A stretch of DNA of 64,000 bases from Aureococcus anophagefferens (taxonomy: Eukaryota; Sar; Pelagophyceae; Pelagomonadales; Pelagomonadaceae): positions 1,811,150-1,875,149 of the forward strand of contig NW_008705561.1 of NCBI RefSeq assembly GCF_000186865.1, read 5' to 3'. A program made the translations under genes and the position numbers. The notes beneath the pieces are model-generated. The model was not told the origin of the DNA and searched no databases. It saw only the letters and a list, made by a program, of their open reading frames with translations. Shown piece by piece: positions 1 to 39,330 of this stretch; the stretch's first letter is position 1; every line of letters starts with the position of its first letter.

Positions 1-749
1 CGCGGTCGAGGCGCGGCAGCTCCGCGAGGATGTCGCCCTCGCGCAGATCAACCTTCTTCAGCGCGGCGACGTCGACGTCGTCGTCGAAGCTCAGGCGCTT
101 GAGCGCCTCGACGGCGCGGTCGTGGCGCGACCGCGACAGCTCGACGCCGACGCTGCCGGCGACCTGTGTGGAAATCAAATCTTCAACCCGACTTCAATGT
201 GCGCGTAATCGAACGGTTCGGACCAGATTCTTTCACCGTGCTTCGAGAACTTGACGAGCGCAATCGATTCGTCCAAAAATCAGCCGAATCGACTTCGATG
301 TGACCGAGCTAGAGAGTTCTGAAGTTTGGTGGGGACCCCCCAAACCAGTGGTTGATTTCCACGCTGCCGGCGACGGCGCACTCGACGGCGCAGTGCGCGA
401 CCATCTGGCCGACGCCCGAGCCCAGGTCCGCGAAGACCGCGCCGGCCGGCGCGTCGTAGAGGCCCAGCGCGTCGAAGACGCAGCGCGCGCCGTCGAAGGT
501 CACCTCGCCGTAGGTGTTGCCGTTTTCCCCCGAGACCGCGTCGATCGCCGCGTCCTCCTCGGGCGTCGCCGTCGAGAACCCGTCGAGCCCCGTCCAGGCC
601 CGGCGCAGCGCGGCGTCGATCGTCGTCCGGCGCTGCAGGTCCTCGGGCGTGCGCGGCGCCGGCGGCAGGGCCGGGAGGCCCGGGACCGTCAGGCCCGAGG
701 CGGCCAGCGACGCGGCGGCGACGGCCGTCGTGATGGCGTCGAGTCTCAT
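1..749 (-). CDS. DOT1-like SAM-dependent methyltransferase, 3' end outside window
   Basis: Exon 1 is 749..375 and exon 2 runs 163..1 off the window edge. The phase-0 intron between them (374..164) is an introner. The protein opens with a hydrophobic, Ala-rich leader (MRLDAITTAVAAASLAAS), so it may be secreted or targeted to an organelle. A TYGEV motif follows, then the SAM-binding motif DLGSGVGQ at about residues 105-112, and GVELS just after the splice junction. This spacing (YGE, DLGSGVG, GVE) matches the DOT1-type class I methyltransferase fold. Joining the exons rebuilds an uninterrupted motif block, which supports the intron call. An in-frame ATG 39 bases upstream (788) is also possible. 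The substrate is unknown. With a leader in place of nuclear features, a histone substrate should not be assumed. Confidence 0.72.
164..366 (+). mobile_element. Introner element, family A copy 1 (antisense to host gene)
   Basis: A 203-bp element bounded by near-perfect terminal inverted repeats: CTGTGTGGAAATC at the left and the complement of CAGCGTGGAAATC at the right. The flanking 8-bp direct repeat is CCGGCGAC at 156-163 and 367-374. Read in the host gene (minus strand), the duplication GTCGCCGG gives the GT donor and the element end CACACAG gives the acceptor. Splicing restores GCC|GTC GCC GGC AGC without loss or gain. It lies in the opposite orientation to its gene, unlike copies 2-4. Confidence 0.9.
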
Positions 750-1118
750 GGTGGCGATGGCGAGATGGGTCACGGCCTCCGGGCGCATGCGAGAGAGGGT
801 GCTAGAGGGAGCGCTAGAGGGGGCGGCTAGCAGCAGACACGAGTACTGCAAGCCATCGCAGTGGCAAATCTGCGGCAATCGAGCTGCATCGCAAACCTCG
901 GCCGGCATCCGACTCGCTTGTGGACGCCGGCGTCTGCCCAGGCTGCGGCGCGAGGACAACTCACCTTGCGTTGTCGAGGGCAAGCGCCACCGCGCTTGCG
1001 CGTGGAACGAGGCCGAGCCGCGAGCTCGGCGCAGATCGAGCGGGCGTGATCGCGGCGCGCGCCTAGAACGACGGCCGGCTCGCCGTTCGCTCCCTAGAAA
1101 CAGTTCCAGAGAGTTATC
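750..1118. other. Divergent intergenic region, likely shared promoter
   Basis: This 369-bp gap separates the starts of two divergent genes. Reading frames that cross it are low-complexity Arg-rich shadows with no recognisable motif. No TATA box or other element can be assigned with confidence. It must hold both 5' untranslated regions and both promoters. Confidence 0.5.
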
Positions 1119-4100
1119 ATGGGGGTGAACCAGAGCAGCGCCCAGAAGGACGACAAGCTCGCGGCGGCGAACATCGGCCACTTCGACCACAGCTACGAGG
1201 CGCTGCTCATCACGGCGAGCCCCGGCATGGTCCCCGAGCCGCTCGCGGGCGCGCCGCCGCGGCCTCCCGCGATCGCGAAGAAGCTCGGCGACGAGGGCCG
1301 CTTCGTCGAGCTCGTCATGAAGTTCGACACGGTGCAGCTCTGCGAGGTGACGAACGTCGCGTCGGGCGAGAAGCGCACGCTCTGCTTGATCCCCTACGGG
1401 AGCCTCAAGTCGCTCGAGTGGGACCACTCGTGCTCGTCCGTGAAGATGGTCACGGGCGGCCGCGAGGCGGGCCTCGAGACCTTCGCGGTCGTCAAGGTGC
1501 ACAACTCGCTCGAGCTCGAGAACGAGGCGAAGCTGCGGCTCCGCGGCCTGTCGCGCGCGTCGAACGCCGCGCCGGTGTCGATCACGTTCGGCTACTGCGG
1601 CGTCTACGCGGGCCCGACGAAGCCCAAGCCCTTCCAGCGCAAGCGCGCGAACCTGAGCACGCGCGAGCAGGGCAAGCTGCCGCCCCTGGCGCTCATGCGC
1701 GACCTCGCCCTCGCGCGGCACCTGGGCTCGGGCGCGCCGACGCGCGCGAACGGCTCGAAGCGCCTCGTGCACGCGTTGGAGCACATCCACAAGGGCGGCA
1801 ACACCTTCGCGGTCATGCACGCCTACGAGCGCGGCGTCGCGACGGCGGCCGGCGCCAACGGCATGAACGCCGTCGAGTCGAAGCTCGCGCTGACCGCGGG
1901 CGACTTCGGGCAGCCGGGCATCGCGTACGTCGAGGGCCAGAAGATGGTCTTGGACTGTGTGCAAATCAAATCTTCAACCCGACTTCAATGTGCGCGTATT
2001 CGAATGTGTTGACACGAGCACTTCCGCCGTGCTTCGAGAACTCGACGAGAGCAATCGATCCGTCCAAGAATCAGCCGAATCGACTTCGATTTGACCGAGC
2101 TAGAGAATTCTCAAGTTTGGTCAGGACCACCCAAACCAGTGGTTGGTTTCCACACAGGTCTTGGAGCACGCGTGGGCCGACGTGCTGGACTACGAGGTCC
2201 ACGACAAGGTGCACCAGGGCGAGCACAGCAGCGGCATCGAGATCACCTTCGCGGACAAGGCCGGCGGCGCCGCCCACAAGTGGTTCTTCGTGGTCCTGGA
2301 CGTGTTGCAGCTCGGCGACGCCGTCGAGCACTTCTGGAACCGGCGCGAGGTCGCCGCGGGGCGGCCGCCGCGGCCCCGGTCGACGCACGGCCGCGCCGTG
2401 GCCAAGGTGACGACGCTCCACGGCGAGATCGACGCGCCGAAGCGGCCGCGCGGCGATCTGGACGTCGTCGACGAGCACGGCACCTTGGTCCGGTCTTCCG
2501 GGACCGCGCACGGCGGCGTCGCGAAGCGCAAGTCGACCCTCTTGGGGTCCATCAAGGGCAAGAAGGCCAACGGCTGGGCGCTGAACGACCAGACGAACAA
2601 GTACTGGGATTCCGTGGTCGTGCACCAGGGCTGGCTTTTGAAGAAGGGCGGCCTCGCGAAGTCGTGGATCAAGCGCTACGCCGTGTTGTACGAGACGGCC
2701 ATGGGCCACTTCCTCTGCTACTACGCCGACTTCGCCAAGGCGCCGTTGTTTCACCCGGAGGAGCGCGAGCGGCGCATCATCGACCTCTGCAAGACGACGT
2801 TCGTGCGGCCCGTGAGCAGCCGGGCCGAGGCGCCGCCGAATTCGTTCGACATCTGCACGATCGAGCGCGAGTGGACGCTGTCCGCGGACAGCAAGCAGTC
2901 CATGCAGACCTGGCTCCAGGTCATCACGCGCTGCATCGACGAGGACGTGGCCATCGTGCCCGACGACGAGCTCGTCTTCCACGTGAAGCCGCGCGTCGAC
3001 CCTTCCATGCAGCTCGTCAAGAACGAGTACAGCGCGGCGCTCAAGGTGTCCGCGTCGGGCGTGTCCGTCTGCGCCGTGGCGTCCAACGAGGAGCTCGTGG
3101 AGCGCTTCTTCTGGTGCTACACGGACTTCTTCAAGTGGTCCATCCTCCACCACGGCGGCAAGACGGGCCTCCAGGTGTCCGTCTTCACCTCCGCGGACTT
3201 CAACGTCAAGGACCGCCACGAGTTCCTCTTCCGCACGCGCGACGCCGTGAAGCTGGCGACGGCCATCGAGTTCTACATCGAGAAGTTCATGTCGGCCATG
3301 CACTTGTACCTCGAGGGCGCGCCGCCGGACGCGGCGCCGGCCGCGGGCTCGGGCGGCATGGCGATGGCGACGGCGGAGATGGCGAGCGACAATTTGCTAG
3401 GCGACGACGCGTTGCTCCTCGGCGGCGACGACGACGACGACTCCCAAAAGGCCGCGGCGCCGCCGCCGCCGCCGCCGCCGGGCCAGGACGTGCAGTCGAT
3501 CCTCGACCTCTTCACGACGCCGACGGTCGCGGGCCCCGCGCACGCGGCCGACGACCCCTTCAACCCGGCGCCGCCGCCGGCGCCGCCGCCGGCGCCGCCG
3601 GGCGCCGACCTGCCGGACCCGATGCGGGACCCCTTCGCGGCCTTCGACGGCGGCGAGAATTTGGCGGACGACGTCTCCGCGCTGTCGGTCGACACGGGCC
3701 ACGCGGCGCCCGTGACCATGGACCACGCGGACGACATGGTCCACGCGTCGGCCTTGTTCGAGGCGCTGGCCGTGGGCGCCGAGGCGGGCGCGGGCGCGGC
3801 CAAGGGGCTGCTCTTCGAGAACGACCACGTCCGCGTCGCCGTCGAGCAGGACTACCGCGGCTCCGAGGGCCGCGTCACCGTCCGCGTCGCCAACAAGGCG
3901 TCCGCGGTTTTAGCGGGCCTCGCGACGGAGCTCGACGTCGGCGCGACGGGCCTGCGCCACGAGTTCGGCCCGCTGAGCGGCACGACGCTCGCGCCGAACG
4001 AGGCCGCCGCGCAGCTGCTCATGCTCGAGTGCATGCGGCCCTACGACGCCGCGCCGACGCTCGTCGTCAAGTTCGGCGTGGCCAACGTGCCCTACGAGCT

Positions 4101-4506
4101 GCGGCTCGCGCTGCCCGCGCTCTTCACCAAGTTCCTCGAGGCCGTGCCCCTGTCGCCCAACGTCTTCGTCCAGCGCTGGGCGACGCTCGGCGCGCCGGGC
4201 CTCGAGCACATGGTCACCTTCGCGGCGCGGCGCGGCGCGGCGACGAAGGACGCGGCGCTGCCGCGGCTCCGCGACCTCGCGCAGATCGCCGTCGTCGAGG
4301 GCGTCGACGACGGCGGCGGCACGATCCTCTCGGGGGCGACCGCGCTCCGCACGGGCACGCTCAACGCCGGCGGCGAGAAGATCAGCGTCGGCTGCCTCGT
4401 GCGCCTCGAGATGAACGAGGCCGCCGCGGCCTTCCGCCTCACCGTGCGCACGGCCGTGCCCCACGTGTCCACGGCGCTCTCCGACGCCATCCAGAATTTA
4501 CTCTAG
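1119..4506 (+). CDS. PH-domain protein with C-terminal alpha-adaptin-type ear domain
   Basis: Exon 1 is 1119..1946 and exon 2 is 2158..4506, giving 1058 aa. The phase-0 intron is an introner. The N-terminus MGVNQS fits an N-myristoylation signal. A PH domain lies at about residues 430-540 (starts HQGWLLKKGG, contains WIKRYAVLY, ends in a WLQVI helix). An acidic, Pro/Ala-rich linker of about 280 residues follows. The last ~230 residues resemble the AP-2 alpha-adaptin appendage: a beta-sandwich with VRVANKAS, then LPALFTKF and FVQRWATLG, which match the platform subdomain. The combination suggests a phosphoinositide-binding membrane adaptor in clathrin or vesicle traffic. Residues 1-430 are not recognised. 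The ear assignment rests on remembered motif similarity. Confidence 0.75.
1955..2157 (+). mobile_element. Introner element, family A copy 2 (sense)
   Basis: A 203-bp element starting CTGTGTGCAAATC and ending GGTTTCCACACAG, flanked by the 8-bp duplication GTCTTGGA (1947-1954 and 2158-2165). The intron is 1947..2157. Its GT comes from the upstream target copy and its AG from the element end. Splicing reads AAG ATG|GTC TTG GAG CAC in frame. The two TIRs differ from each other at a few bases. Confidence 0.92.
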
Positions 4507-4686
4507 GGCCGCCCCCGCGGCCCGCGCCGGCACCACCTACTGTCCGCCCCCCCCCCCGGTCCCCCCTCCACGCCCCCTCCCGACCCGGTTGGCGCGTCTA
4601 AACCCGCCGACACCAGGGGCTTGCGCGCGGATTCCATTCCGGACACGACGGTGCCCCTGGTCTACTCCGCTTCGGCCCCCTCCTCC

Positions 4687-5988
4687 CTAGCGGCGAGCGA
4701 AGACGCCGGGGCGGTTCTCCCCCTGCGCGCCTTCGCCGTATTGCTCGGCGGACACGGACACGACGCTGCCCGTGAGGACCTGGCCCTGGGCCATGACGGG
4801 CGCGCCGAGGAGCACCTGGCCCTGCGGCTGCGCGATGCCGACGACCATGGCGACGGGCTGGACGGGCTGCTGCTCGAACTTGGGCGGCGGGACCATCTCC
4901 TGCTGGGGCGCCCGCGCCGGCGTCGGCGCGACCGTGCGGCTCGGCACGCTCGCGAAGCCGCCGGCGCTCCGCGCGTCCGCCTGGCGCGCGGTCTCCGCGA
5001 GCAGGACCGCGAAGACCGCGGCGAGGAAGAGGAACGCCGCCCCGGCGACGAGCATGGCGTGCGCGTAGCCAAAGTCGACGGACCGGAAGGGGTACGCCTC
5101 CTCGACGACGTCCTTGAAGTTGGCCCAGTTCCCGTAGGACAGGACGGCGCCGACGCCGCCCGCGGCGCAGTAGACGGCGACGCCGTAGGCCAGGTTGCAG
5201 CTGAGCTCGCCCGAGGCGACGCCGCGGCCGACGAGGAAGATGAGCGCCCAGTGCGCGAGCATGACGAAGCCGACGCAGATGAGCATGTTCTTCGAGCCCC
5301 GGAAGCGGCCGCCGCAGAGCGCCTTGAGCAGCCGGGCCTGCGCGCGGTTCATGGGGCTGTTCCACCAGCCGTAGAGGTGGGGCGTGTTCTTGAGGCCGTA
5401 GCTGTTGCGCGAGTCCGCGTGCTTGGCGTCGCTCGAGGCGCCGCAGATATTGGTCAGGGGCGTGTGCTGCATCGCCGCCGTGTAGTCGTCGAAGCGCGTC
5501 GGCGGCTCGGGCGGCACGACGGCCGAGAAGACGTGGTCGACCGCGCACCCGAACTTCTTGTCGTTCCCCGTCCCGATGCAGAGCACCTCGAAGCTCCCGA
5601 AGCCGATCATGCTGTTCGTGTATTTGTGGTCCGCGGCCGCGTCGTAGCCCCCGGCCATGTAGGCCGGCAATTGCGCCGTCGCGGACGCCGCGGCGCCCGA
5701 GTCCCACTTGCCGACGTAGACGAAGGACTTGCTGCTGCCGGCCATGAGCACGATGGCGAAGCCGACGACGGCGCAGACCTCCGCGCAGGCGTGGCAGATG
5801 GCGGGGCCCGGCCGCGCCGACCCGCCGTTCTGCCAGGCGACGGCGTGGAGGACGACGTCGATGAGGACGAAGAGCGGGATGAACACGCAGGCCATGATCA
5901 AGGAGACGGCAAAATCCGCCGTCGACCCGCCGTTCCCGGCCGCGACCAGGGCGGGGACGAGAACGACCAGCAGCGCGCGGCGCATCAT
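4687..5988 (-). CDS. Multispanning membrane protein of unknown function
   Basis: A 433-aa product with a likely signal peptide (MMRRALLVVLVPALVAAG). At least five hydrophobic segments follow: two near residues 25-90, and three in the second half around MLICVGFVMLAHWALIF, YGVAVYCAAGGVGAVL and AMLVAGAAFLFLAAVF. A Cys-containing loop of about 120 residues between the second and third membrane segments probably faces the lumen or outside. The C-terminal ~100 residues are Pro/Gln/Val-rich and probably cytosolic. The layout recalls MARVEL- or tetraspan-type proteins, but no diagnostic motif was seen. The gene converges on the PH/adaptin-ear gene with a 180-bp gap and is divergent from the alpha-2/delta-like gene with only 131 bp between starts. 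A start 8 codons upstream (6012) is possible. Confidence 0.7.
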   Translation of the reverse strand: MMRRALLVVLVPALVAAGNGGSTADFAVSLIMACVFIPLFVLIDVVLHAVAWQNGGSARPGPAICHACAEVCAVVGFAIVLMAGSSKSFVYVGKWDSGAAASATAQLPAYMAGGYDAAADHKYTNSMIGFGSFEVLCIGTGNDKKFGCAVDHVFSAVVPPEPPTRFDDYTAAMQHTPLTNICGASSDAKHADSRNSYGLKNTPHLYGWWNSPMNRAQARLLKALCGGRFRGSKNMLICVGFVMLAHWALIFLVGRGVASGELSCNLAYGVAVYCAAGGVGAVLSYGNWANFKDVVEEAYPFRSVDFGYAHAMLVAGAAFLFLAAVFAVLLAETARQADARSAGGFASVPSRTVAPTPARAPQQEMVPPPKFEQQPVQPVAMVVGIAQPQGQVLLGAPVMAQGQVLTGSVVSVSAEQYGEGAQGENRPGVFARR

Positions 5989-6119
5989 CGTCGACGGAGG
6001 GCGGTGGGGCACGAACGATGCGTCGGCGTCGAACAGAGCAGCCCAGCGCTTTTAGAGCACTCCTTATCCAACGCACAATGCTCTTTTGATTGAGGTTTTA
6101 CTGCTCGAGAGCATTAACG

Positions 6120-9100
6120 ATGGTCGTGCGCGTGTTCGTAATCGTCGGCATGGTCGCCGTACGCGCCCAGAAGGAGGCGCCGGCCCACGCGGGACCCCCG
6201 CTCCTCGCCGAGTGCCTGGCGGATCCGTCGCGCGCCCAGGCGGGCGTGTCCGGCGCGGGCTGCCCGCCCGCCGACTCGCCGGCGGCCGCGGCCTACCTCG
6301 CCTACGTCAACGCGCCCCCGCGGGCGGCGGCCCCCGCGGCGGCGGACCGGCAGCTCTACGCCTGGGACAACACGGGCCGGTCCTGCCCCATGTTCAGCGA
6401 CGGCCGCGTCTCCGAGCCGCAGTGGAACCTGCAGAACTGCACGAACCACCGGAAGAACAGCTGCTGCCGCCAGGCGGACGTCACGGCGGCCTTCTCCGAG
6501 CTCGGGAGCGCGAACCTCATGCTCGACGCCGGCGTGGGCTCCGTCTGCACGCAGATCGTGACGGCGCTCATGTGCCACTTTTGCGCCTACGACCAGTCGG
6601 ACTGGTACGACGCGTCCGCGAGCGCCTCCTCCTCGAGCGGCGCGCTGGCGTCGGGCCACAAGGCCGTCACGGTCTGCAAGAGCATGTGCGACCGCGTGCA
6701 CTACCACTGCGCCGGCGCCTTCTACAACGGCGTCCTGCTGAGCGACGCGTTCTCCGACGGCACGGAATTCTGCGAGGCGAACAACTTCGAGGTCTACAAC
6801 GACGGCTCCTACTCGACCGGCGGCCCCTGTTTCGGCGTGTTCAGCGACCCCTGGGACATCCCCTGGCTCTACAGCGCCCGCCGGCGCCTCGGCGACGGGG
6901 ACGCGGCGGAACGCGCCGGGGACGCGCGCCTCGGCGACGGGGACGCGGCCGCGGGCGCCGGGGACGCGCGCCGGCGCCTCGGCGGCGGGGACGACGCGCC
7001 GCCCCCGGCCCGGAGCGCCGCCGCCGCCGCGCGGCCGCGGCTCGCCGCCGCCGCCGCCGCCGCCGCGGCGCTCGGCGGCCGCGGCGGCGTCGCCGCGCTC
7101 CTGCTGCTCGGCGCCGGCGCGCGCGCCGAGGAGGTCCAGCACTGCCCCTACTTCAACAACCGCGCGCCGCGGCCCGAGTGGGGCCTGACGAACTGCACGT
7201 GGCACCGGCCCATGAGCTGCTGCGGCGCCTCCGAGGAGGCGAGCCTCGTCGCGGGCCTCGAGGACTTACACGTCCAGGGCGAGTCGCTCGAGTGCCAGCA
7301 GCTCCTCAACTACCTCGTCTGCTGGCCCTGCCACGGGAACCAGATGGAGTTCTACGACCTCGAGTCGAACCGCCTGTCCGTCTGCGCGTCCTACTGCGAC
7401 GCCATCTACGCCAACTGCGCGGGCGCGCGCTTCAAGGGCGCGACGATGGCCGACTACTTCGACTCGGGCGACGACTTCTGCGGCATGCTCCACGCGGACG
7501 TCGTCGACGACGCGAACGACGACGGCGCGTCGTGCCTCCGGCTCTACGACGGCGCCTGCACGGCCCCGGACTGGCGCTTCATGCCCAAGCTCAAGAGCGG
7601 CGCGTCGGCCGCGCGGCCGGCGCTCGCCGCCGCGGCGCTCGCCGCCGCGGCCGCCGCGCTGCTCGCCGCGGGCGCCGGCGGCGCGCCGCGGCGCCGCCGC
7701 CGCCGCGGCCCCGCGCGCGTCGCGCTCGCCGCGCTCGCCGCGCTCGCCGCGCCGGCGCCCGCGGGCGCGAGCGTGACGACGGCCCAGGTCCTGCGCTGGG
7801 CCGCGGCCGTCGGCGACGAGCTCAAGAACGCGTCGCGCGACGTCCTGCTCCGCGACGAGATCCAGGCCGTCTACGACGCCGCGAACTACACCTACACGTC
7901 CTACAACGGCACGGCCGAGGCCGAGAAGCTCGCGGACCGCCTCTACGAGGCCAAGACCTTCGTCGAGGACGTCGTCACGGACTTCAAGGCCGAGCTCAAG
8001 GCCGCCTACGGCCGCCGCGACGACGCCGCGGTCGGCGACGACCTCAAGCCCTGCAAGGGCGCGTGCGAGCCCGACGGCACGGGCGGCGCGGGCTGCGCGT
8101 CGACGTGCTACTACGACGTGGACCTCGCGCTGCCCCCCGACATCGAGTACAGCAACCGCTACAAGCAGAAGGTGTCGCCCTCGAAGTGGTGCGCGAAGAT
8201 GCCCGACGAGGAGCTCCGGACCCTCGACGCGAAGCGGACCATCGCCTGGACCCAGGACGCGACCCTGGAGGCCTGGCTCGAGGCCAAGTGGGCGCACCAG
8301 GAGCAGTGGCACTACATCGTCTTCGGCGCGCCCGACGGCGTCATCCGCCAGTTCCCGGGCTCCGCGCGCCCGACGAACGCCGCGGGCATGCCCATGGACT
8401 ACGACCCGCGGCTCCGGCCCTGGTACCTCGCGCCCACGGGCGGGCCCAAGGACGTGGTCATCGTCATCGACGCGTCCTACTCCATGGACGAGGGGCGGCG
8501 GCTGGACCGCGCGAAGCGCATCGCGAAGTCGCTCCTGCTCACGCTCACGGTCGAGGACTACGTCGGCGTCGTCGAGGCCAAGCAGGGCTACTGGGGCTAC
8601 TGGAACCAGTGGGAGTGGCGCCAGCCGACGGAGCTCGGCTGCGTCGACGACGCCATGTTCCCCGCGACGACGTCGGTCCGCGTGGACCTCGGCGGGAAGA
8701 TCGACGGCATCAAGACCGACGGCGGCACGTGCGTCGAGGACGCCATGGCCCTCGCTAGGAGCCTGCTGGACAAGTACCGATCCTTCCGGGGCGGCTGCCA
8801 GGAGTACATCATCTACATCGGCGACGGCGACGACTACGACGCCATGGGATCGACGTCGGGCACCGCGCGCAAGGCTGCCTGCGGCTACTGGGACTGCTGC
8901 CCGTGCGGCGACAACTGCTGCTACACCTGCTGGATCCCCTGCGACAAGCAGGACTACGAGTACGAGTACAGCCACGCGGCGACCTACGCCGCGGAGCTCC
9001 TCGACGACGAGGGCATCAACACGATCACCTACAGCGTCAAGGACGACGAGAAGCGGAACCCGCTCTCGTGCGTCGCCATGGCCGGCGGCGGCTTCCACCA

Positions 9101-11618
9101 GAGCTACGACGACGCGGCGCACGACGTCAACACCTTCGCGCTCCTCGCCGAGTGGCTCGACTACCTGCGGCAAAAGTCCGAGGACGAGGGCCAGGAGTGG
9201 ACGTCGTCCTACATCGACCTCACGGGCAGCGGCCTCATCGCGAGCCTCTGCGAGAGCGTCTACCTCGACGACGGCTCCTTCCTGGGCGTCGCCATGAGCT
9301 CGCTGAGCCTCGAGCAGACGGAGAAGCTGCTCCTGAACGACATCTGGGGCACGGCCTACGCGTTCATGGTCGACGTCGAGGGCGAGGCCATGATCCACCC
9401 GCGGCTCACGCCGCCGTCGCACCTCGCCGCGTCGCCCCTCTTCCCGGACATCGAGTCGCTCGAGACCTACAACGGCTTCCCGGCCGAGTTCCTCCAGGCG
9501 CGCGACGACATGGTCCACTCGCGGGCCGGCGCGGCGAAGATGACGACGCGCCAGCTCCGGCCGCGCGGCGGCGTGCTCGACGGCGTCATGGTCGTCGAGG
9601 ACGAGGTCGAGTACTTCTGGGCGCCCGTGCCGGACAGCGAGTACGTCGTCGGCTACGTGCTCGCGACGCCCGACGACGTCCACTACCGCGTGCCCGTGGA
9701 GCCGCCGGCGCACTGGGGCGTGACGAACCACATGACGAACTACCTCCACAAGTTGCTGGACTACGAGACGCTCGGCGCGCTCGGCGACGCGACGCTCGCC
9801 CAGGCCTTTCTCGATCTGGACGTCCAGAAGGACGGCGTCTTCGGGGGCATCTCCTACAACGGCATCTGGGTCACGGGCGCGCACTCCGTCGTGACGCTCG
9901 CGGAGCGGTCGCTCTGCGCGCCGGACGAGTTCACGCAGCTCGATTTAGACGACCTGCTCCTACCGACGGCGCACGGCGACCTCAACGAGGACCGCGACGC
10001 GACCGTGGGCTGGCGCGACTGCGACTCGGGGTCGTTCATGCACGAGCGGGCCTTCGCGGACGTCGAATTGACCTTGGCCATCGAGGAGCCGTGGCTCGCG
10101 CGCGACATGTCCGGCGACTACGGCTCCTTCGCCATCACGGGCATCGGCACGGCGAGCGGCAGCTTCCGCTTCTACCCGGGCTACCAGCTCTACCGCGGCT
10201 TCGACCCGACGGTGCGGCCCTGGTACTACGCGGCGGTGGCGAACAAGGACGCGCTCGCGATCTCGACGCCCTACACGGCGGCCGCGGGCGAGGGCATCTA
10301 CGTGACCATCTCCGCGACGATCTTCGAGGGCGCGCCGGACTGCGCCGAGTCCGCGACCATGGGCCACGACGGCGGCTGCGCGTGCGCCGACGGCTCCGAC
10401 TGCGAGAGCGGCGTCTGCGCGGCGACGGGCACGTGCACGTCCGTGTGGAAATCAAATCTTCAACCCGACTTCAATGTGCGCATATGCGACCGTTTCGACG
10501 CGAGGCTTTCTGTTGTGCCTCGAGAACTCGATGAGAGCAATCGATTCGTCCAAAAATCAGCCGAATCGACGTCGATTTGACCGAGATAGAGTTCTGAAGT
10601 TTGGTGGGGACCCCCCAAACCAGTGGTTGGAATCCACACAGGTGCACGTCCGTGCGCGTCGAGGCCGTCGCCATGGGCGCGCGCTTCTACGACGCCTTCC
10701 ACGACCGCATGCACGAGCTCACGGAGGGCGCGTGCTCCGATGCCGTCGCGACGGATTCCAGCTCGACGGCGCGGCGCTGCTACCTCGTCGACACGGCGGG
10801 CTACGCGATCTGGAGCCCCCACTTCGCCGCGCTGGACATCTACGACACGCGGTCCTTCCAGTCCGTGCCCCTGGCCCGCACGGAGGGCAAGGTCTTCTCC
10901 GCGCTCGAGGCGCTCGGCGTCTTCGTGCGCCACAGCGAGATCCTGTACCAGGGCACGTGCACGAAGACGCCGTCGTACCTCATGGACAGCGTCACGACCA
11001 GTGTCGGCGCAGGGGTCCCTACGTACGCGCCTCTCCGTAGCCCCTTCCTGATCCTATGGACCCATGACGTATTCGCCTGCGCAGGTCACCGCCGACGGCG
11101 CGTTCCCGCCGGCCGAGGAGGTCGACGCGCACTACCCGGGCTCGCCGAGCTTGGGCTACTTCCCGCCCTGGGCGAACACGCACGGCTGCGTCCAGGACGT
11201 CGTCTACTACGACCTCGACGAGGACGCGCTCGCGGCGCAGGCCGACGGCGTCGCGTCGGGCTACATCTCCGGCGCGGGCTGCTACGAGGCCGCGTCCTGG
11301 CACTTTGCGCGCGCGCCGGGCACGAACGCCTACCTCCTCGTCATCGACGACATCGAGGTCGCGACGACGCCCGAGAGCGCGACGTCCTTCGAGTTCGCGT
11401 GCTCCGTCGAAAACGGCCTCTACACGCCGGGCGCCTACCTCCTCGTCAACGGCTCCTGCGGCATTCTCCACGAGGTGCCCGAGCACCCCATCACTTGCCC
11501 GGCGAAGACGGACTACCGACCGACCGTGCCCGAGTGCGAGGACGACGGCGCCGCGCGCGCCGCGGCCTCGACGGCCGCGGCGCTGCTCGCGCTGCTGCTG
11601 GTGATGGCGCGCGGCTAG
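6120..11618 (+). CDS. Voltage-gated Ca channel alpha-2/delta-like VWA-Cache surface protein
   Basis: Exons are 6120..10432, 10642..10990 and 11085..11618, giving 1731 aa. A signal peptide is followed by two homologous Cys-rich modules (about residues 88-240 and 341-480), both with C-P-x-F, a CCxx pair and a CxxxC segment. Ala-rich hydrophobic stretches separate the modules. Next comes an alpha-2/delta-like core: a VWA_N-like region, DPRLRPWYLAPTGG, a VWA domain at about 778 with MIDAS DASYS, and a Cache-like segment repeated near residue 1360 (DPTVRPWYYAAVANKD). The C-terminus ends in a hydrophobic tail, as in GPI-anchored or membrane-tethered alpha-2/delta subunits. The core fits an extracellular accessory subunit of a calcium channel or a ligand-sensing receptor. 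The duplicated Cys-rich modules are not part of animal alpha-2/delta. Two introns interrupt the 3' third. Confidence 0.8.
10441..10641 (+). mobile_element. Introner element, family A copy 3 (sense)
   Basis: A 201-bp element, CCGTGTGGAAATC...GGAATCCACACAG, flanked by the 8-bp duplication GTGCACGT (10433-10440 and 10642-10649). The phase-2 intron 10433..10641 restores AC|G TGC ACG TCC GTG CGC. The donor-side end is CCGTG in place of the consensus CTGTG, and the same CCGTG follows the downstream target copy, so the direct repeat effectively spans 13 bp. Confidence 0.9.
10999..11084 (+). mobile_element. Candidate degenerate introner, second intron of the alpha-2/delta-like gene
   Basis: The 94-nt intron 10991..11084 joins AGC|GTC ACC in phase 0 and is needed to keep the frame open. 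Removing its first 8 bases leaves an 86-bp segment that starts CAGTGT and ends GCGCAG. It is flanked by GTCACGAC on the left and GTCACCGC on the right, an imperfect 8-bp repeat (6 of 8). This is the layout of the clear introners after decay. No copy with a similar interior was found in the window. Confidence 0.45.
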
Positions 11619-25802: not shown

Positions 25803-27779
25803 ATGCCTCGGCGTACCGCAGCGGAGCAGCGTAAAGTGGACCGGAAGGTGGCGAAGACCGCGGAAGAGGCCGCGGAGTGCAAGCGGCTCAAGGACGCACA
25901 CGACGATTTCAAGAACTCCGACGCGGCGCCCGGGCCGCACCGCGACAAGAAACTCAAGAAGCTCTACGACGACTGGTACGACTACTACGCGGCCACCGGC
26001 AACGGCAAGCGGCAGATCAAGCGCGAGGCGCAGAACTCGCTGAGCAACAACCTCCACAAGAAGCTCGAGGCCGCGCGCGCCGACGACACGCTCCGGGAGA
26101 CGACGAAGAAGCAGAAGGTCGACGAGCTCGCGGCGCAGGCGGCCGCCGCGAAGGCGAAGACGCACGCGGCGGAGGAGAGCGCCCGCAACGACGCCAAGCG
26201 CCAGAAAGTCATCGACCTCCGCGAGGACGCGCGCGCGGTCGCCGCCGACGCGAGTTTGAAGCCGTCGACGCAGAAGCGGAAGCTCTCCGCGCTCGCGAAG
26301 CAGGTGGCCGCCGCGGAGGAGGACACGCACGCGGCGCAGCAGCGGCGCCAGCGCCTCGCCGCCTACGCGACGCACCAGGAGCTCGCGGATGAGCTCGCGG
26401 TGCTCCTCGACGACGAGGACGCGGACGAGGACGACGTCGCGGACCTCACGGCGCGCGTCCAGGCCGCGGAGGAGGACACGCCCGCGGCGCGGTCGCGGCG
26501 CCAGCGCCTCGCCGCCTACGCGGCGCACAAGGCGCTCGCGGATGAGCTCGCGGTGCTCCTCGACGACGAGGACGCGGACGAGGACGACGTCGCGGACCTC
26601 ACGGCGCGCGTCCAGGCCGCGGAGGAGGACACGCCCGCGGCGCTGTCGCGGCGCCAGCGCCTCGCCGCCTACGCGGCGCACAAGGCGCTCGCGGATGAGC
26701 TCGCGGTGCTCCTCGACGACGAGGACGCGGACGAGGACGACGTCGCGGACCTCACGGCGCGCGTCCAGGCCGCGGAGGAGGACACGCCCGCGGCGCTGTC
26801 GCGGCGCCAGCGCCTCGCCGCCTACGCGGCGCACAAGGCGCTCGCGGATGAGCTCGCGGTGCTCCTCGACGACGAGGACGCGGACGAGGACGACGTCGCG
26901 GACCTCACGGCGCGCGTCCAGGCCGCGTGGCTCAAGACCGGCGCGGGGTACAGCGCCGCGCGCCGCTTGGCGGACCTCGAGGCGGAGATCCGCGCCTCCG
27001 CCGCGACGGGCAAGGTGCCGCCGGGCAAGATCCTGGAGCGCGCGCGCGCCATCGCGCGCGCCGTCGTCGACTACTCGCTCCAGGAGATCCGCGCCGGCCG
27101 CCGCGTGTCCATCGGCAACGCGCGGTTCGGGCGCATCCTCGAGGAGGCCAAGCGCGTGCCGCGGCGCGAGGGCTTCGCGGTCAAGGGCCCGCGCGGCGGC
27201 ACGCTGCCCTGGAGCCGCTTCTCTTTGAAGCTGTTCCCGCGCGTCGCGGAGACGGTCGTCGGGAACGTCGCCGAGAAGTACGCGCACAACATGCTCGCGA
27301 ACCACGAGGCCGTCACGCTCGACGACTTCGCGTACGACAACTTCGGCTCCGGCGGCGTCCACCACGACGAGGAGCTGGGCGACACGGGCCTCTACGTGCT
27401 CTCCCTGGAGCCCCGCGCGACGGACACGACGCGGCCGTCGCGCTACATCCTGGGCCGCGAGGTCGAGTTCAGCGACGAGTTCGAGGCGGAGCTCGCGGCG
27501 GGGCGGTCGCCCGCGGGCATGCCGACGTCGGCGCGGAAGGACGACCTCGACGTCTACATGCAGGACTTCTCGGCCACGGGGAGCCCGGTCTACCGCGTCT
27601 ACACGCGCGGCACGTGGGCCGTCTTCACGTACAAGAAGAAGCCCGACTCGCCCTTCAACGGCCTCCAGAAGTTCAAGTGGGGCTCGTCGGCCGTCGCGCG
27701 CGCCAAGGCCCAGGCGAAGATCGACGAGAAGTCCGTCAAGGGCAACTACGTCGTCGTCGGCTCGGACAGCTGGGTCTAG
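25803..27779 (+). CDS. Coiled-coil protein with four 51-residue tandem repeats, unknown function
   Basis: A 658-aa protein. The first 170 residues are a charged, Lys/Ala/Glu-rich helix-former. Residues 171-374 are four tandem 51-aa units, each with RRQRLAAYA, LADELAVLLDDEDADEDD and VADLTARVQA. Units 2-4 are almost identical at the DNA level. The C-terminal ~280 residues look globular (AEKYAHNMLANHEAV, GGVHHDEELGDTGLYVLSLEP, TRGTWAVFTYKKKPDSP) but match no family I know. There is no signal peptide. An ATG 75 bases upstream (25728) would add a hydrophobic leader; the downstream start is preferred because codon bias begins there. The gene is divergent from the EF-hand gene. Confidence 0.7.
   Translation: MPRRTAAEQRKVDRKVAKTAEEAAECKRLKDAHDDFKNSDAAPGPHRDKKLKKLYDDWYDYYAATGNGKRQIKREAQNSLSNNLHKKLEAARADDTLRETTKKQKVDELAAQAAAAKAKTHAAEESARNDAKRQKVIDLREDARAVAADASLKPSTQKRKLSALAKQVAAAEEDTHAAQQRRQRLAAYATHQELADELAVLLDDEDADEDDVADLTARVQAAEEDTPAARSRRQRLAAYAAHKALADELAVLLDDEDADEDDVADLTARVQAAEEDTPAALSRRQRLAAYAAHKALADELAVLLDDEDADEDDVADLTARVQAAEEDTPAALSRRQRLAAYAAHKALADELAVLLDDEDADEDDVADLTARVQAAWLKTGAGYSAARRLADLEAEIRASAATGKVPPGKILERARAIARAVVDYSLQEIRAGRRVSIGNARFGRILEEAKRVPRREGFAVKGPRGGTLPWSRFSLKLFPRVAETVVGNVAEKYAHNMLANHEAVTLDDFAYDNFGSGGVHHDEELGDTGLYVLSLEPRATDTTRPSRYILGREVEFSDEFEAELAAGRSPAGMPTSARKDDLDVYMQDFSATGSPVYRVYTRGTWAVFTYKKKPDSPFNGLQKFKWGSSAVARAKAQAKIDEKSVKGNYVVVGSDSWV
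26313..26924 (+). repeat. Coding minisatellite, four 153-bp units
   Basis: The units start at 26313, 26466, 26619 and 26772. Their exact 153-bp period keeps the frame. The first unit differs mainly at its 5' end (THAAQQ for TPAALS). The others differ by only a few bases, which indicates recent expansion or gene conversion. Confidence 0.92.
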
Positions 27780-28932: not shown

Positions 28933-28983
28933 ACTTACGAGCTAAAGCTGAACAAATCCGAAGATGTTGAACTCAAAGAAAAT

Positions 28984-29934: not shown

Positions 29935-30012
29935 CTTGCTGCAAGGCCCGCACCTCTCGTACGCGTCCGCGAGTATACATGGCGCGACGTTCGAAGATAC
30001 ATTAAATCGCCC

Positions 30013-31233: not shown

Positions 31234-31241
31234 GGCGATGA

Positions 31242-31277
31242 GAGTGTGTTTCACTTTGCCCCGGCGGAGCTCTGCCG
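31242..31277 (+). repeat. Harbinger left terminal inverted repeat
   Basis: Begins GAGTGTGTTTCACTTTGCCC and continues CGGCGGAGCTCTGCC. It matches the complement of the right end with one base gap after CCGGC. Confidence 0.93.
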
Positions 31278-31348
31278 GCTCGCCAGAGTCGGGGAGGCAG
31301 AGCCCGGCAGCCCGTCGCCATTCGAACGACGTCGTCAACCGCAGCCCC

Positions 31349-33581: not shown

Positions 33582-35164
33582 TTAGAGCGGGACCATGCGG
33601 TCCAGGAGAGTCTGGCGGTAGGCGATCGCTCCAGGAGCGGTCGTCGTCGGGACGACGGGACGCCCGACGTAGTCCGGGTCTTCGTCGCCGACGTCGGGCG
33701 TCGTGGCGAAGCGCCGGAAGCGGCTCGTAAAACCCTGGTCCATCTCGTCGATGGTGACGTTGTGGAGGACAACGCAGGCCTTGACGATGGTGTTCCATTC
33801 TTCGGGAGTTCGCTGGCGCAGGCCCACGCGGAGGCATCGCCACTGGCCTTTGAGCTTGCCGTATGCGCATTCGACGACGACGCGCGTCGCCGAGAACCGC
33901 GCGTTGTACGTTTTCCACCGGGGCTTCGCGACGGACGCCGACTTCGGAAAGCCCTTCTGCAGCCAGCGCGTGAACGGGTACGCGCTGTCGCCCATGATGA
34001 AGTACGGGTGCGGGACATACCTACCTCGGGTGGCTGAGTGAGAGAACGCGCGCAGACGCGACTCGCGGACTGCGGGCCGTGCGTCCAGAGCGCGCTGTCC
34101 TGGAGCGCCTGCACGTCGCTGCCCTGGCCCGGGAGCCCCACGTGGACGTGAATGAAGCGCCCGACGGCGTCGACGAGCCCGCTGAGGATGATGCTGTACC
34201 AGCCCTTCCGGTTGAAGAAGTCGTCGTGTATTTCCGTCGACGGTTCCACCCCGATATGGCTCCCGTCGAGCACGCCGAGGACGTGGTCGAAGCCGCTCCA
34301 GGCCTTGAAGGCATTGGCGGCGGCGGCGCGCTTCGCCTCCGAGTTGGGCCAGTGCCGATTGACGTAGCGGGCGGTGAGCTCCGACACGACCGCGGACGTG
34401 AAGGCCCTCACGCACCGCATGACCACGGACCCGCTGAGGTTCCTCCTGAAGACCTGCGCCGTCCCCCGGTACGTGGCCCCCGTGGCCAGCTGCCAGAGGG
34501 CGATGAGGGCGACCTCGTCACCGTTTCGAAAGTGCAAGAAGTCGTTCGACGTGTCGCGGAGCTGCTTCGGGGCCCGAGACCTCAAAAGCGGTCGGATCGT
34601 CTGCATAATGGTCTGGTAGGCCTCGAAGGAGAGCCGGAAGTGGCTCCTGAACTTCTCCTTCATGCTCGCGATGAGGTAGTCTACATCTTCGTCATCATCC
34701 GGCGGGTCGAACAGGATCACAAAGTCGTCGTAGATGCCATGCCCTCGGTTCGGCGGGCGGACTGGGTTCTCCTCGCGCGAGGCCAGGCGATGCCAGAGCT
34801 CCCGGCGGGCGCGACGGCGTTGACGCAGTAGAGCGCGGTTCGAGCGGCGGTCGCGCCGGTCGACGACGTCGGCCAGAGCCAGCCCCGCGGGAGAGAGCAG
34901 GAAGGGCACCTGCGGCATGCACGTGATAGCCGCCGCTGCGCCGCAAAGGAGGAGCAGCATCTCGAGGCTGAGGTCCGTCGCCGCCGTCCCGAGCACGACG
35001 GGCGCGACGGGCTCGCCGTCGTCCGAGGGCGGCGGCAGCGACTCGTCGTCGAGGAGCACCGGCGCAGGCGTCCGGAACACCGGAGCGCGGCGCGGCGCGC
35101 CCCGGCCACGGCCACGGCCACGGCCACGACCGCGGCCACGGCCCAGGCGCGCGGTCCTAGCCAT
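33582..35164 (-). CDS. PIF/Harbinger transposase (DDE superfamily)
   Basis: Exon 1 is 35164..34063 and exon 2 is 34024..33582, giving 514 aa. A 38-nt intron with GT/AG ends is proposed; a frameshift is the alternative. The N-terminus has a Gly-Arg repeat (GRGRGRGRG). A helical DNA-binding region (RLSFEAYQTIMQTIRPLL, ATGATYRGTAQVF) leads into the catalytic core. The DDE triad is visible as LGVLDGSHIGV (first Asp), PYFIMGDSAYP (second Asp) and ATRVVVECAYGKLKGQW (Glu), with GWYSIILSGLVDAVGRF and LPGQGSDVQAL between. This is the DDE_Tnp_4 arrangement. The enzyme cuts and pastes the element with a 3-bp target duplication, matching the flanking TGA. Confidence 0.9.
35103..35143. repeat. GGCCAC hexanucleotide repeat in transposase exon 1
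   Basis: About six imperfect copies of the hexamer GGCCAC encode the Gly-Arg run near the transposase N-terminus. It is a likely site of length change by slippage. Confidence 0.8.
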
Positions 35165-35233
35165 CGGGCTGCCTTCGAGTCCGGAGCTCTGCAGTGGTGT
35201 CGAGTGCAGAGCTCGGGGCAGCTCTGCCGGCCT

Positions 35234-35270
35234 GGGCAGAGCTCCGGCCGGGGCAAAGTGAAACACACTC
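35234..35270 (-). repeat. Harbinger right terminal inverted repeat
   Basis: Its complement reads GAGTGTGTTTCACTTTGCCC then CGGCCGGAGCTCTGCCC, matching the left repeat. It is followed directly by the TGA target copy at 35271-35273. Confidence 0.93.
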
Positions 35271-35284
35271 TGAGCTGCGCTGAA

Positions 35285-36806
35285 CCACTGCCTTTTGGCC
35301 TGTTTCAGCCGCTGGCGCCGCCGCCGTCTGGCCGAGACGGCGGCTGTACCGCGTCGATTTGAGCGCGGTAAAGCCGTGACGCGCGGCGCATAGACCCAAC
35401 GCGTGGGCCTGACTACTTTTTTCCAGCGAATCGCGGGCGCGCGGGCGCGCGGAGGTCGCGCTCTCGACGAATATATGCTCAAATCGTGTCGATCCCACCT
35501 CTCCGAGCCGCTCGTGGCATCATAGAGAGCCGTTTTGTTACCGCGGTCTGCTCCATACACGCCTCGAGCGGACTGAACCGCGAGAACACCCTCGGGGACT
35601 GTTTCGACTCCGCGGCCGCGCGTTCGAGACGAGCGCCGAAACGCCGACACGACCGCGAACGCTGCCAAAACGCCGACGGACGCCAAGACGCGGAACCGCT
35701 TGCGCAGCGCGACGATGGGGTTACGATAGGACACGATCGACGCCCCTGCGACTCCTGGCACGCCCGAACTCGCGCAAAGTCTAGGATCGTAGGGTATGGT
35801 CGCAAATCGATCCCTTTTGAGCCGATTTCGGACGCGCGCGACCGCGTTCGCGCGACTACTTTTGCACCGCGTTGTCGGCGCAACATATCTGGAGCGCGTG
35901 GGAAGCGGAACGGCTGGAATCCATGCTGTAGCGGCTGTAAAAGGTCTCAAAGCTTGTCACATGCTCTCTGAGCTGCTCGGAGAGCGGCCCGAGCGAGTTG
36001 GCTGGGGATCACGCCGGGAGCGGCGGGCGCCGTCGGCCAGTGCGCGCGACGATGGTAGTTTCTATGGTGAAAAATTGGTAAGCACCGGCGGGTGCGCCTA
36101 AGGAAGGGCCCAGCAAACTTTCACGCCCAGTTGTGAGGGTGTTGCAGCGATCGGATGGCGTTCGTCCGATCCCTAGAGGGAATCCAGCCCCAAACCGACC
36201 CTTACGCGACGACACACGAGTCGTTTTCGGCGCTCTAAAGGGCCGCGCGCACGTCGGCATGACCATACGCGACGGTCCGGCCAAAAAGACCGCGCGACGG
36301 CAGCGTTTTAGAACGAGTCGCAGGGACGCGTCCGACACCTTGGGCGAGTCGTAGGGGCCCGTTCGTCAGCCGTCGTAGCTCGCGCGCTCTCGGAGAAGTC
36401 TGTTTTGACGTACAAAAGCACGTCATGATCTCGGTACAGCGTTCGCGCCACCGCGTCGAGGTCGCGAGCGCGTGCGAAATCCGTCTCCCAGCGCACCCGC
36501 GGGTTGGAACACGTCGAGACATATACAAAGCAGCTCCCATCGCAAAACGGCACGCTACGAAGCCAGTGGGCGCGCAGAAACGCTGGACCGCACCGATTGC
36601 AGTCGCTCCGTGCCGCCACCACCAGTGTTCCTCGCGCGCAGACGCGCCGCGCGCCGGAAAAAAATAGGCAGACCGACGCGTCGGGTCCATGTGTGGAACG
36701 TTAGGGCTTTACCGCGTCGAAATCGCTGCAGTACAGCCGGCGCGAGGGCCAGACATCGTCGATTTCCAGCGGCTGAAACATCGGCTGTCAGCCCAAAAGG
36801 CAGTGG
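35285..36806. mobile_element. 1.5-kb element with long (~140-bp) inverted repeats, unclassified
   Basis: The left arm (about 35285-35427) starts CCACTGCCTTTTGG and includes TTTCAGCCGCTGG, GCGGTAAAGCC and TTTTTTCC. The complement of the right arm (about 36660-36806) runs through the same landmarks in the same order, at roughly 70-75% identity by eye. The interior is of lower GC content than the surroundings and holds only short frames. One minus-strand frame near 35560-35760 has a membrane-anchor-like stretch (RVLASVGVLAAFAVVSAF), and another near 36370-36560 reads as protein-like. No transposase motif and no clear target duplication were found. It may be a non-autonomous or decayed transposon. 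The whole 1.65-kb gap up to the next gene (36922) contains no gene I can support. Confidence 0.6.
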
Positions 36807-36921
36807 AACGTCAACCTCGTGGAGCAGCCTTCCACAGTTTCTGTTCGCGTCGCGTCCGCGCGCCCGCACCCGTCGCGGGGCGCCAGGGCTTAGCGGAGGG
36901 GTGGGGAGAAGAGAAGGGGGT

Positions 36922-39330
36922 TCAGGCGCTCGCGGCGATGATCAGCATGTCGTCGTCCGAGTCGGAGTCGTCCGCCGGCGCGGGCGTCGACGGCGCGGGG
37001 CCGAGCGGCGCGAGGGCCGCGGCCGGCGCCGGAACCTCCGCGGCCGCGGGCCCGAGGGGCGGCGGGTCCGCGCGCGGCGACACGCGCATGGACGGCGGCC
37101 GGGGCACGCGGACGCGCGGGTTGTAGGGCGGCGTCGCCGCGGCGGCCGGCGGCGGCGGGTGCGGCGGCGACGGCGCGCGCGCGCGCTGGCTCTGGCGGCG
37201 CGGCGGGCAGTCCGCGGCGACGAGGGGCGCGCCCTCGTACTTGCAGGTCTTGGTGTGGGCGATGGCGGCGGGCGCGTGGCCGAAGACGCGGCCGCACTTG
37301 CGGAGGCACGGGTAGAAGCCGTTCGCGTCCTGGGGCACCTTGCTCTGCGCGTGGTGGTTGCGGCGGTGCTTCGTCTTGCCGAGGCCCACGGGCGCGGCGG
37401 CGGCCTGGGGCCGGAGCGCGTAGTGCATGGGCTGGTCGACGTCGACGGCGAACTCGGCCGCGTGGCAGACGGGGCACTTGGCGGCGACGGACCGGCCGCG
37501 GTCGTCCCACGTGATCGCGCCGACGGTCGCGAGGCAGGTCTCGTGGACGGCGTGGTCGCAGTGGGCGAAGGTCACGTTCGCCGGGATCTGGGAGTCGTGG
37601 CAGAGCTGGCAGGGCACGACGAGCTTGGGCCGCCGCGGCGCGGGCGCCCGCGGCGGCGGCCGCGCGCCGCCGGGCGCGGGCGCCGCGTAGTGGCCGAGGT
37701 ACTCGCCGGGCGGCGGCCGGTACTTGGGCGCCGCGCGGACCTTCTTCTTCGGCCGCGGCGCGTACTCGTCGACGAGCGCGACGGCGGGGCCGAGCACGCG
37801 GACCGTCGCGCCGACGTAGAGCTCGTCGCCGTCGTCGAAGCCGTCGGCGAACTCGAGGCTGTCCTCGTGGTAGTAGCCCTCGCCGTCGCCGAGGAGACCG
37901 CCCGCGCCGTTGGCCACGAGGAAGTGGCCGTCGTCGTCGACGGCGACGACGACGCCCACGGCGTCGCGCCGCGGCGCCGCGCGTTTTTTGGCCGAGAAGT
38001 GGCCCTTGACGGACGCGGACCGGCTCACGACGCGGACGCGCGCGCCGGGCTCGAGCAAACCGCCGGGCGCCGTCGCCTCGAGCTGGTGGCGCCGGTAGGC
38101 CTTGGTCGCGTTCGCCGCCGCGCCGTCGTGGCGCACGGAGAACCTGTGTGGATTCCAACCACTGGTTTGGGGGGTCCCCACCAAACTTCAGAACTCTCTA
38201 TCTCGGTCAAATCGAAGTCGATTCGGCTGATTTTTGGACGAATCGATTGCTCTCGTCGAGTTCTCGAAGCACGGCAGAAAGCCTCGCGTCGAAACCGTCG
38301 AATATGCGCACATTGAAGTCGGGTTGAAGATTTGGAATCCACACAGCGGAGAACCAGCCGCCCTCGCCGAACGAGAGGATGACGCCCCTGGCGCCGTCCG
38401 ACGGCGGCCGCCGCGGCCGCGACGCCGCGACGGGCGGCCGGGCGACGAGGGCCGCGAGGCGCCGCGTGGACAGCACCTCCTCGTAGCCGTCGGCGGCGTA
38501 CCTGCGAGGCGCGTCCTCGGACGGGACGCGACCGCGCGGGGGGCGCGGGCGGCCTCGCGAGACCTTCCAGCCGCGCTTGCCCGCCTCGGACGTGGCGCGG
38601 TCGACGACGACGCCCTCGTAGACGTCCGAGCCGCCGGCGTCGTCGCGGAACTTGCGCGAGAAGACCTGGCCCGCGAAGACGACGGGGTCTTCGGCGTCGC
38701 TGCCCTCGTCGCCCGCGGACGAGCCCTCGGACTCCGTCGACGCGTCGAAGACGTCGTCGGCGCCCGCGGCGCCCGTCGCGCGCAGGACGCGCCCGGCGCT
38801 CGGCGGCGGGGGGACCGCGGCCGCGGGCTTGGGCACGAGGCTCAGCGCGTCGCCGGCGCCTGCGCGGTCGCGGGTCGCGGGTCGCGGGTCGCGGGGGGGT
38901 AATTTCGTCGCGCGGGGGCCGCGCGGAGCGCGTCGCCGAGGGCCGCGTCGTCGTCGAGGATGAAGTCCGCGCCGCGGCTCCGCAGGGCGAGCACGAGCTC
39001 GCCCGCGGCCGGCGGCGCGAAGGCGTCGCGCGCCGCCTTGGCCGCGTCCGCCGCCGCGAGCGCGCGAGCCGCGGCCAGGGGGCACGCGCCCCGCACGGCG
39101 CCGCCGACGAAGAGCGCGACGGTCTCCGGCGCCTCGGCGTCGCCGGGGCCCGCCGCCGCGAAGAGCGGCGCCGACGCCTCCGGGGCTGCGTCCGAACTCT
39201 TCTCGCCCACGGCCCCGGCCGTGAGAGACTCGACGCCGGTGGTCCCGGCGAAGACCTCCGGGCCCGTGTCGACGCGCAGGTGGTCGACGTAGGGCACGTC
39301 GAGCGTCACCGGCGGCGGCGCGACGATCAT
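36922..39330 (-). CDS. RING-type zinc-finger protein (frame interrupted at a C homopolymer)
   Basis: Exon 1 is 39330..38355 and exon 2 is 38143..36922, about 732 aa, split in phase 2 by a family A introner (GGC TG|G TTC TCC GTG). The N-terminal part (MIVAPPPVTLDVPYVDHL) and the rest lie in frames offset by one base. The switch falls at a run of seven C (38893-38899) beside GCGACCC repeats, so an indel or an unseen intron is required. Exon 2 has SH3-like or chromo-like charged segments, then a RING-type finger at about residues 490-545 (CQLCHDSQ, AHCDHAVHETC, KCPVCHAAEF) and a C2H2-like CLRKCGRVFGHAPAAIAHTKTC. The tail is Pro-rich and ends with DDSDSDDD. E3 ubiquitin-ligase activity is plausible from the RING but unproven. 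Confidence 0.7.
38144..38346 (-). mobile_element. Introner element, family A copy 4 (sense to host)
   Basis: A 203-bp element reading CTGTGTGGATTCC...GGTTGGAATCCACACAG on the minus strand. The 8-bp target duplication is GTTCTCCG (plus-strand CGGAGAAC at 38136-38143 and 38347-38354). The intron 38354..38144 takes GT from the duplication and AG from the element end, in phase 2. Confidence 0.92.

Follow-up and report, generated by a model that had tools for sequence, protein, structure and literature searches.

Putative introners of Aureococcus anophagefferens with 8-bp target duplications that are predicted to supply the 5′ splice site

Four elements in coding sequence

We analysed a stretch of 64,000 bp of Aureococcus anophagefferens DNA (assembly GCF_000186865.1, contig NW_008705561.1, positions 1,811,150–1,875,149, forward strand), which is called the window in the following. 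The guanine–cytosine (GC) content of the window is 71.7%. It holds four elements of 201–203 bp with inverted ends (E1, E2, E3 and E4), all within coding sequence, which we regard as candidate introners, that is, transposable elements that act as introns. They are referred to as family A. The features are as follows:

1..749, minus strand: DOT1-like histone methyltransferase gene, host of E1, extending past the window start (Pfam PF08123, E 1.5e-9)
156..163, minus strand: target duplication of E1, downstream-exon copy, sense GTCGCCGG
164..366, minus strand: E1, putative family A introner; sense 3′ end CCACACAG, sense 5′ end altered to CAGCGTGG
367..374, minus strand: target duplication of E1, predicted 5′ splice-site copy, sense GTCGCCGG; predicted intron 164–374
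1119..4506, plus strand: host gene of E2, with PH domain and alpha-adaptin C-terminal domains; 1058 codons without the intron, end derived from the codon count
1947..1954, plus strand: target duplication of E2, predicted 5′ splice-site copy, GTCTTGGA
1955..2157, plus strand: E2, putative family A introner; predicted intron 1947–2157
2158..2165, plus strand: target duplication of E2, exon copy
10433..10440, plus strand: target duplication of E3, predicted 5′ splice-site copy, GTGCACGT
10441..10641, plus strand: E3, putative family A introner, 201 bp; predicted intron 10433–10641
10642..10649, plus strand: target duplication of E3, exon copy
38136..38143, minus strand: target duplication of E4, downstream-exon copy, sense GTTCTCCG
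38144..38346, minus strand: E4, putative family A introner, both ends perfect; predicted intron 38144–38354
38347..38354, minus strand: target duplication of E4, predicted 5′ splice-site copy, sense GTTCTCCG

The strands listed are those of the host genes; the orientation of E1 is opposite to that of E2, E3 and E4. An earlier sequence-only reading of the window, made by a model, had placed all four elements correctly, and an exact 8-bp duplication flanks each of them. It had let each intron run from the first base of the upstream repeat to the CACACAG of the element, and this holds in the sequence of all four. In the gene sense, the predicted introns start with GTCGCCGG (E1), GTCTTGGA (E2), GTGCACGT (E3) and GTTCTCCG (E4), i.e. 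with GT in every case, and CACACAG stands at every predicted intron end. The inverted ends it described are present, but only E4 has the perfect pair CTGTGTGG/CCACACAG. The sense 5′ ends of the others read CAGCGTGG (E1), CTGTGTGC (E2) and CCGTGTGG (E3). Calling the copies near-identical went too far, as their pairwise identity is 85.7–93.6%.

An internal word of 24 bases had four perfect matches in the window, one per element (0.00 expected at ≤3 mismatches). The 8-base end word alone was not enriched in the window, with 15 matches at ≤1 mismatch vs 26.9 expected. The predicted introns are 211, 211, 209 and 211 bp long (E1–E4). None of these lengths is divisible by three, and the computed retention of any one element led to an in-frame stop in its host gene.

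The flanking repeat was longer than 8 bp in E1 (14 bp, 361–374 with 150–163) and in E3 (13 bp, 10433–10445 with 10642–10654). In both, it reaches the altered sense 5′ end (CAGCGT in E1, CCGTG in E3), and these altered ends equal the host bases directly past the downstream duplication. Flank copying was rejected as a general property of altered 5′ ends: E3 matched five bases and E1, by eye, six, but of 19 non-canonical ends compared, the other 18 matched none or one.

Host genes and protein joins

The stretch matched by PF08123 crosses the E1 join. The E3 host protein had a VWA match above the Pfam cut-off and a Cache match below it; the E4 host protein had a RING match below the cut-off.

Excising one duplication copy together with the element reopens the frame in phases 0, 0, 2 and 2 (E1–E4). 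The same phases had been proposed from the sequence alone, and Pfam, homologs and codon usage bear them out. Frame length does not: the wrong frame of E2 was open for 1107 codons and the right one for 1065, so frame length alone is ambiguous in this GC-rich window. Codon usage selected minus phase 0 (E1), plus phase 0 (E2), plus phase 2 (E3) and minus phase 2 (E4), with zero stops in 400 bases on each side. For E2 and E3, this choice is not independent because both genes trained the caller; there, Pfam and homologs decide.

Protein searches were run against a database of 5.8 billion sequences, and the best 7992–7998 candidates were scored per search. For E1, 8 of 16 returned homologs were aligned, and 7 of these crossed the join (best identity 98%). 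For E2, 7 of 107 were aligned and 6 crossed (best identity 99%), and for E3, 2 of 3 were aligned (P0124 and P0125, ~73% identity) and both crossed. The named close homologs were pelagophyte proteins; Chrysophaeum is a pelagophyte. Judged by sequence, E1–E4 are most likely removable introns because the landing duplication would give one splice signal and the element end the other.

Family A across the genome

The assembly comprises 49.05 Mb in 86 contigs. A genome search for end pairs, similar to the one proposed earlier (CTGTGTGG, here 170–200 bases, CCACACAG), found 422 copies, and its reversed control found none. A 17-base end pattern had 1232 genome matches (reversed control: 1). These are not 1232 independent insertions because many elements contribute two ends; halving gives at least 616 family A elements. 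On contig C1, two pairs of single ends, picked out by eye among the ends listed, were considered as possible termini of a longer element; their flanking bases disagreed.

The target duplication has a fixed length of 8 bp, and its 8-mers vary from site to site. It was exact in 76 of 102 candidate rows, in line with the earlier expectation of 8-bp duplications at most other copies. With ≤1 mismatch in the duplication and ≤2 mismatches in each end, 91 of the 102 rows were retained. Two window rows whose duplications have 6 and 8 mismatches probably do not represent copies.

The terminal inverted repeats are CTGTGTGG/CCACACAG, with the variants CTGTGCCG/CGGCACAG and CTGTGTGC/GCACACAG. Five copies form a subtype with CTGTGCCG at one end and CGGCACAG at the other (L018, L024, L029, L099 and L100), and three more of the 91 copies show such an end on one side only. 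The subtype ends are therefore often altered jointly.

We checked the 8-mers that adjoin the 1232 ends for a start in GY (G followed by C or T) and for an end in RC, the complement of GY on the opposite strand. A GY start was found in 738, an RC end in 811, both in 328 and neither in 11. If the two sides were independent, 169 ends with neither would be expected (odds ratio 0.018). In the 8-mers flanking 75 sampled copies, 61.8% had neither. These 75 copies have an exact duplication and ends with ≤1 mismatch. A third, stricter rule was failed by 13 listed rows.

Strand test

The gene strand was derived from the codon usage of the flanks, and the duplication itself was not used. Of 102 candidates, the 91 within the mismatch limits given above entered the tests and 11 were left out; 73 of the 91 had confidently coding flanks. 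GY was found on the sense side in all 72 clear calls (90 copies with sufficient flank tested), with 42 GC and 30 GT donors. When the calls were repeated with the E1 gene left out of the set-up, it was found in 73 of 73 clear calls (43 GC and 30 GT). With no duplication filter (102 candidate rows), all 76 clear calls had sense GY and AG at the sense 3′ end. E1 (row L031) is included in this count with a wrong 5′ boundary, owing to its altered end; its true 8-mer also starts with GT.

On the antisense side, GY was found in 19 of 72 copies, no different from the background of 21.6% (p 0.32). The upstream 8-mer had a GY start or an RC end in all 91 copies, including the 18 copies with no clear strand. 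Hence, GY is at most a weak criterion of target choice, and insertions with no sense GY are missing. The rule appears to be mainly the survival of spliceable insertions, because sampled antisense GY is close to the background, with a small excess genome-wide; that selection is the cause is what we infer from this pattern.

Element orientation relative to the gene was balanced (38 vs 35 in 73 strand-assigned copies). Insertion phases 0, 1 and 2 occurred 19, 17 and 37 times vs 40, 25.5 and 34.5% expected from GY positions. The GC share of donors was 58.9% in family A and 34.6% in a second family (family B, see the following subsection), with flank GY backgrounds of 78.7 and 78.3%. A hAT-type target consensus had no clear sign in the sense-oriented 8-mers (A at position 7: 16% vs 13% in flanks).

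The sequence-only reading had stated that all flanking repeats start with GT and that the 5′ splice site comes from the duplication. The first statement is right for E1–E4 and does not extend to the family, with 43 GC vs 30 GT in 73 copies. The second is supported with GY as the dinucleotide; in family A, GC donors outnumber GT donors. Its proposal that DNA transposition creates these introns agrees with the 76 strand-assigned copies, the whole-genome counts and the protein joins of E1, E2 and E3, all of which point to it at the level of sequence.

Family B and an apparent insertion difference at the E1 gene

P0007, a protein from a Joint Genome Institute (JGI) contig of 1199 bases, follows the E1 gene beyond the E1 site without E1 and then runs into a different repeat, family B. 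Whether this is read as presence and absence of an insertion depends on the contig, which may be DNA or RNA. One family B copy placed after GTCGGCGT reproduced 59 of the 63 residues in this section of P0007. The start of GTCGGCGT in the Aureococcus genome is 12 bp downstream from the E1 8-mer, and the family B copy of the P0007 type is missing at that site. The 8-mer begins with GT and may thus serve as an out-of-sample check of the GY rule.

Recent activity had been proposed on the strength of copy identity. Copy identity is a poor basis for it; the exact duplications and the apparent insertion difference support it.

Family B also occurs in the window:

56523..56726, plus strand: putative family B introner; element 56531–56726, ends CAGGGCAGG...CCTGCCCAG
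56523–56530 and 56727–56734: its duplication, GTTCTACG

In the genome, the best 150 of 2747 family B candidates were scored. Copies have the ends CAGGGCAGG...CCTGCCCAG and 8-bp duplications, and 29 of 33 copies from the DNA examined were 192 bp long. All 30 strand-assigned copies of the 33 followed the rule of sense GY and 3′ AG; three had no strand call at the looser margin. The stricter margin gave 26 calls, 22 forward and 4 reverse. The four reverse-inserted copies had CTGGGC at the acceptor-forming end, where forward copies had CAGGGC, CGGGGC or CCGGGC.

The cores of families A and B were 58% identical (200 shuffles reached at most 56%) and have the tract GGCTGATTTTTGGACG in common, which suggests that family B is related to family A. 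In nearly all of the best 150 scored matches of family B, one frame was open for ~57 codons.

Search for the mobilising transposase

Profile searches of the genome gave no match for hAT (PF05699), Mutator-like (PF10551), Merlin/IS1595 (PF12762) or KDZ (PF18758). The 14 control genomes were also without a match for PF05699 and PF18758 and had matches for PF10551 and PF12762; the controls are informative for the latter two only. PF21787, the P-element-type RNase-H domain, had one match (G000:C25:178372-178818, E 1.4e-9) and none in the controls. This match is interrupted by three in-frame TAG codons. P elements make 8-bp duplications. The P-element-like domain on contig C25 is a possible mobiliser or its remnant and should be treated as a lead.

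Proposed mechanism and alternatives

We hold with high confidence that E1–E4 are non-autonomous cut-and-paste DNA transposons, i.e. miniature inverted-repeat transposable elements (MITEs), acting as introners. A transposase supplied in trans would insert the element at a cut with staggered ends, and the filling of the gaps would then leave an 8-bp target copy on either side, as the exact duplications suggest. The upstream copy would become the 5′ splice site wherever the target 8-mer starts with GY on the sense strand. The element end CACACAG would provide the AG of the 3′ splice site, and the downstream copy would restore the exon. An intron that starts at the first base of the upstream copy and ends with the last element base would be removed without altering the mRNA. 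Either insertion orientation would work because both family A ends read CTGTG from the outside in. GY would be selected weakly or not at all by the transposase, and non-spliceable insertions would be lost afterwards.

Several observations weigh against this reading. The flank-matching altered 5′ ends of E1 and E3 fall outside a simple insertion model. At the joins, P0013, the most distant aligned E1 homolog, has one additional residue exactly at the join, and P0024, an E2 homolog, begins at the join. The E3 protein of the window lacks five residues found in P0124 and P0125, and this gap ends four residues before the join. P0001 and P0017 may stem from complementary DNA (cDNA) or from empty genomic alleles, and the homolog comparison covered E1, E2 and E3. 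The genome sample is not random, as it consists of the best BLAST hits and of copies with exact ends, and contigs C1 and C2 contributed most of it. Two window genes, those hosting E2 and E3, served to train the strand caller, and 18 of the 91 selected copies had no strand call. An autonomous partner of family A is postulated. Finally, GY occurred on both sides in 328 of the 1221 8-mers with at least one GY side (26.9%) vs 21.8% expected from the flank background given sense GY (p 3e-5, or 0.003 at half the number), and some target preference for GY may exist.

This last excess bears on the alternative that the transposase itself prefers GY targets, so that the splice site would come from target choice and not from selection. 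A mild preference is possible, and a strongly asymmetric form tied to transcription is still compatible with the data. However, a symmetric preference gives no rule of at least one GY side, as seen in the 11 ends that lack both, and it does not fit a sense side with GY in every clear call next to an antisense side like the background. A purely symmetric target preference was therefore rejected as the whole cause, and we consider target choice an unlikely source of the splice site overall. The element might also hold both splice sites. The intron would then start at the GT that follows CTGT within the 5′ end of all four elements (GTGG in E1, E3 and E4; GTGC in E2), and the mRNA would gain 12 nt (8 from the duplication and 4 from the element), which preserves the frame. 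A precedent is family 4 of another Aureococcus (excerpts of PMC9860276). Such an internal donor needs no GY in the duplication, yet GY was found in 76 of 76 copies and would be superfluous, and P0001, P0017, P0124 and P0125 have no four-residue insertion at the join, though they may be empty alleles. The 12-nt model was rejected and is very improbable.

An exact intron would also result from RNA-based spread, in which an excised intron is reverse-spliced into a new transcript and then returned to DNA. Reverse splicing predicts a single orientation and no such duplication, while family A has site-specific, differing 8-bp duplications, inverted ends and both orientations in near-equal numbers; the chance that it spread in this way is close to negligible. 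If the four elements were unspliced, gene-disrupting insertions, they would represent recent mutational load. The intron status is read here from the sequence, which leaves room for this idea, but retention would shift the frame and introduce stops in all four genes, and the rule of sense GY and AG would be left without a cause. We give it a very slim chance.

Other repeats in the window

A tandem array at 26157–27068 has a 153-bp unit in four to five copies, with inner copies 97–98% alike. A direct repeat of 157 bp (48510–48666 and 48837–48993, 92% identical) lies near several segments of lower GC content and possibly contains further introns.

Comparison with known introners and meaning

Introner elements of A. 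anophagefferens were reportedly described by Huff, Zilberman and Roy in 2016 (Nature 538:533). The following comparisons are by description and draw on excerpts of the papers cited. According to PMC7789003, direct repeats and inverted ends, both constant in length, and canonical splice motifs mark the published A. anophagefferens elements, and PMC10228655 credits Huff et al. with the report of co-opted splice sites and of both insertion orientations. Family A is alike in being MITE-like, in its inverted ends, constant-length direct repeats and co-opted splice sites and in both orientations; it differs in that the majority of its donors are GC. The genome of strain CCMP1851 is 49.9 Mb with 70.5% GC (PMC11237714), consistent with the assembly size and the window GC content given above.

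Some introners bring their own 3′ splice site, while the duplication supplies the 5′ site (Gozashti et al. 2022, PMC9860276). Those of Symbiodinium microadriaticum are like family A in this respect and in their inverted ends, but have a 4-bp duplication instead of 8 bp. Family 4 of Aureococcus sp. shares the genus and the 8-bp duplication; it carries both sites and adds 12 bp, whereas family A is predicted to add nothing. Some families of Micromonas pusilla, a different lineage from Aureococcus, also have DNA-transposon signatures. The same source reports that introner consensus sequences have no homology beyond the genus. E1–E4 match these descriptions and are thus a well-supported example of a mechanism that is already known; the lineage is very probably the one from which it was described.

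According to a 2011 survey, 39.6% of the introns of A. anophagefferens are of the GC-AG type (PMC3033335). The survey ascribed this abundance largely to genomic GC content, yet listed it among the puzzles that lack an easy explanation. A joint reading, which we offer tentatively and at somewhat less than even chance, is that the transposase is nearly blind to GY and that about four in five genic insertions (those without sense GY, 78% by flank background) are lost, leaving the spliceable remainder visible. GC donors would survive at ~0.4 times the rate of GT donors in family A (43 GC : 30 GT vs a background of 0.787 GC) and, in family B, at a rate of 0.15 times. The insertion of introners into genes rich in GC would thus be a main cause of the GC-AG introns, and a P-element-like transposase may drive both families.

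Few mechanisms of intron gain are supported on the genome scale, and the bulk birth of introns from transposons is one of them. With the strand test, target choice and survival can be told apart using sequence alone. The numerous GC donors suggest a cause for the abundance of GC-AG introns in A. anophagefferens.

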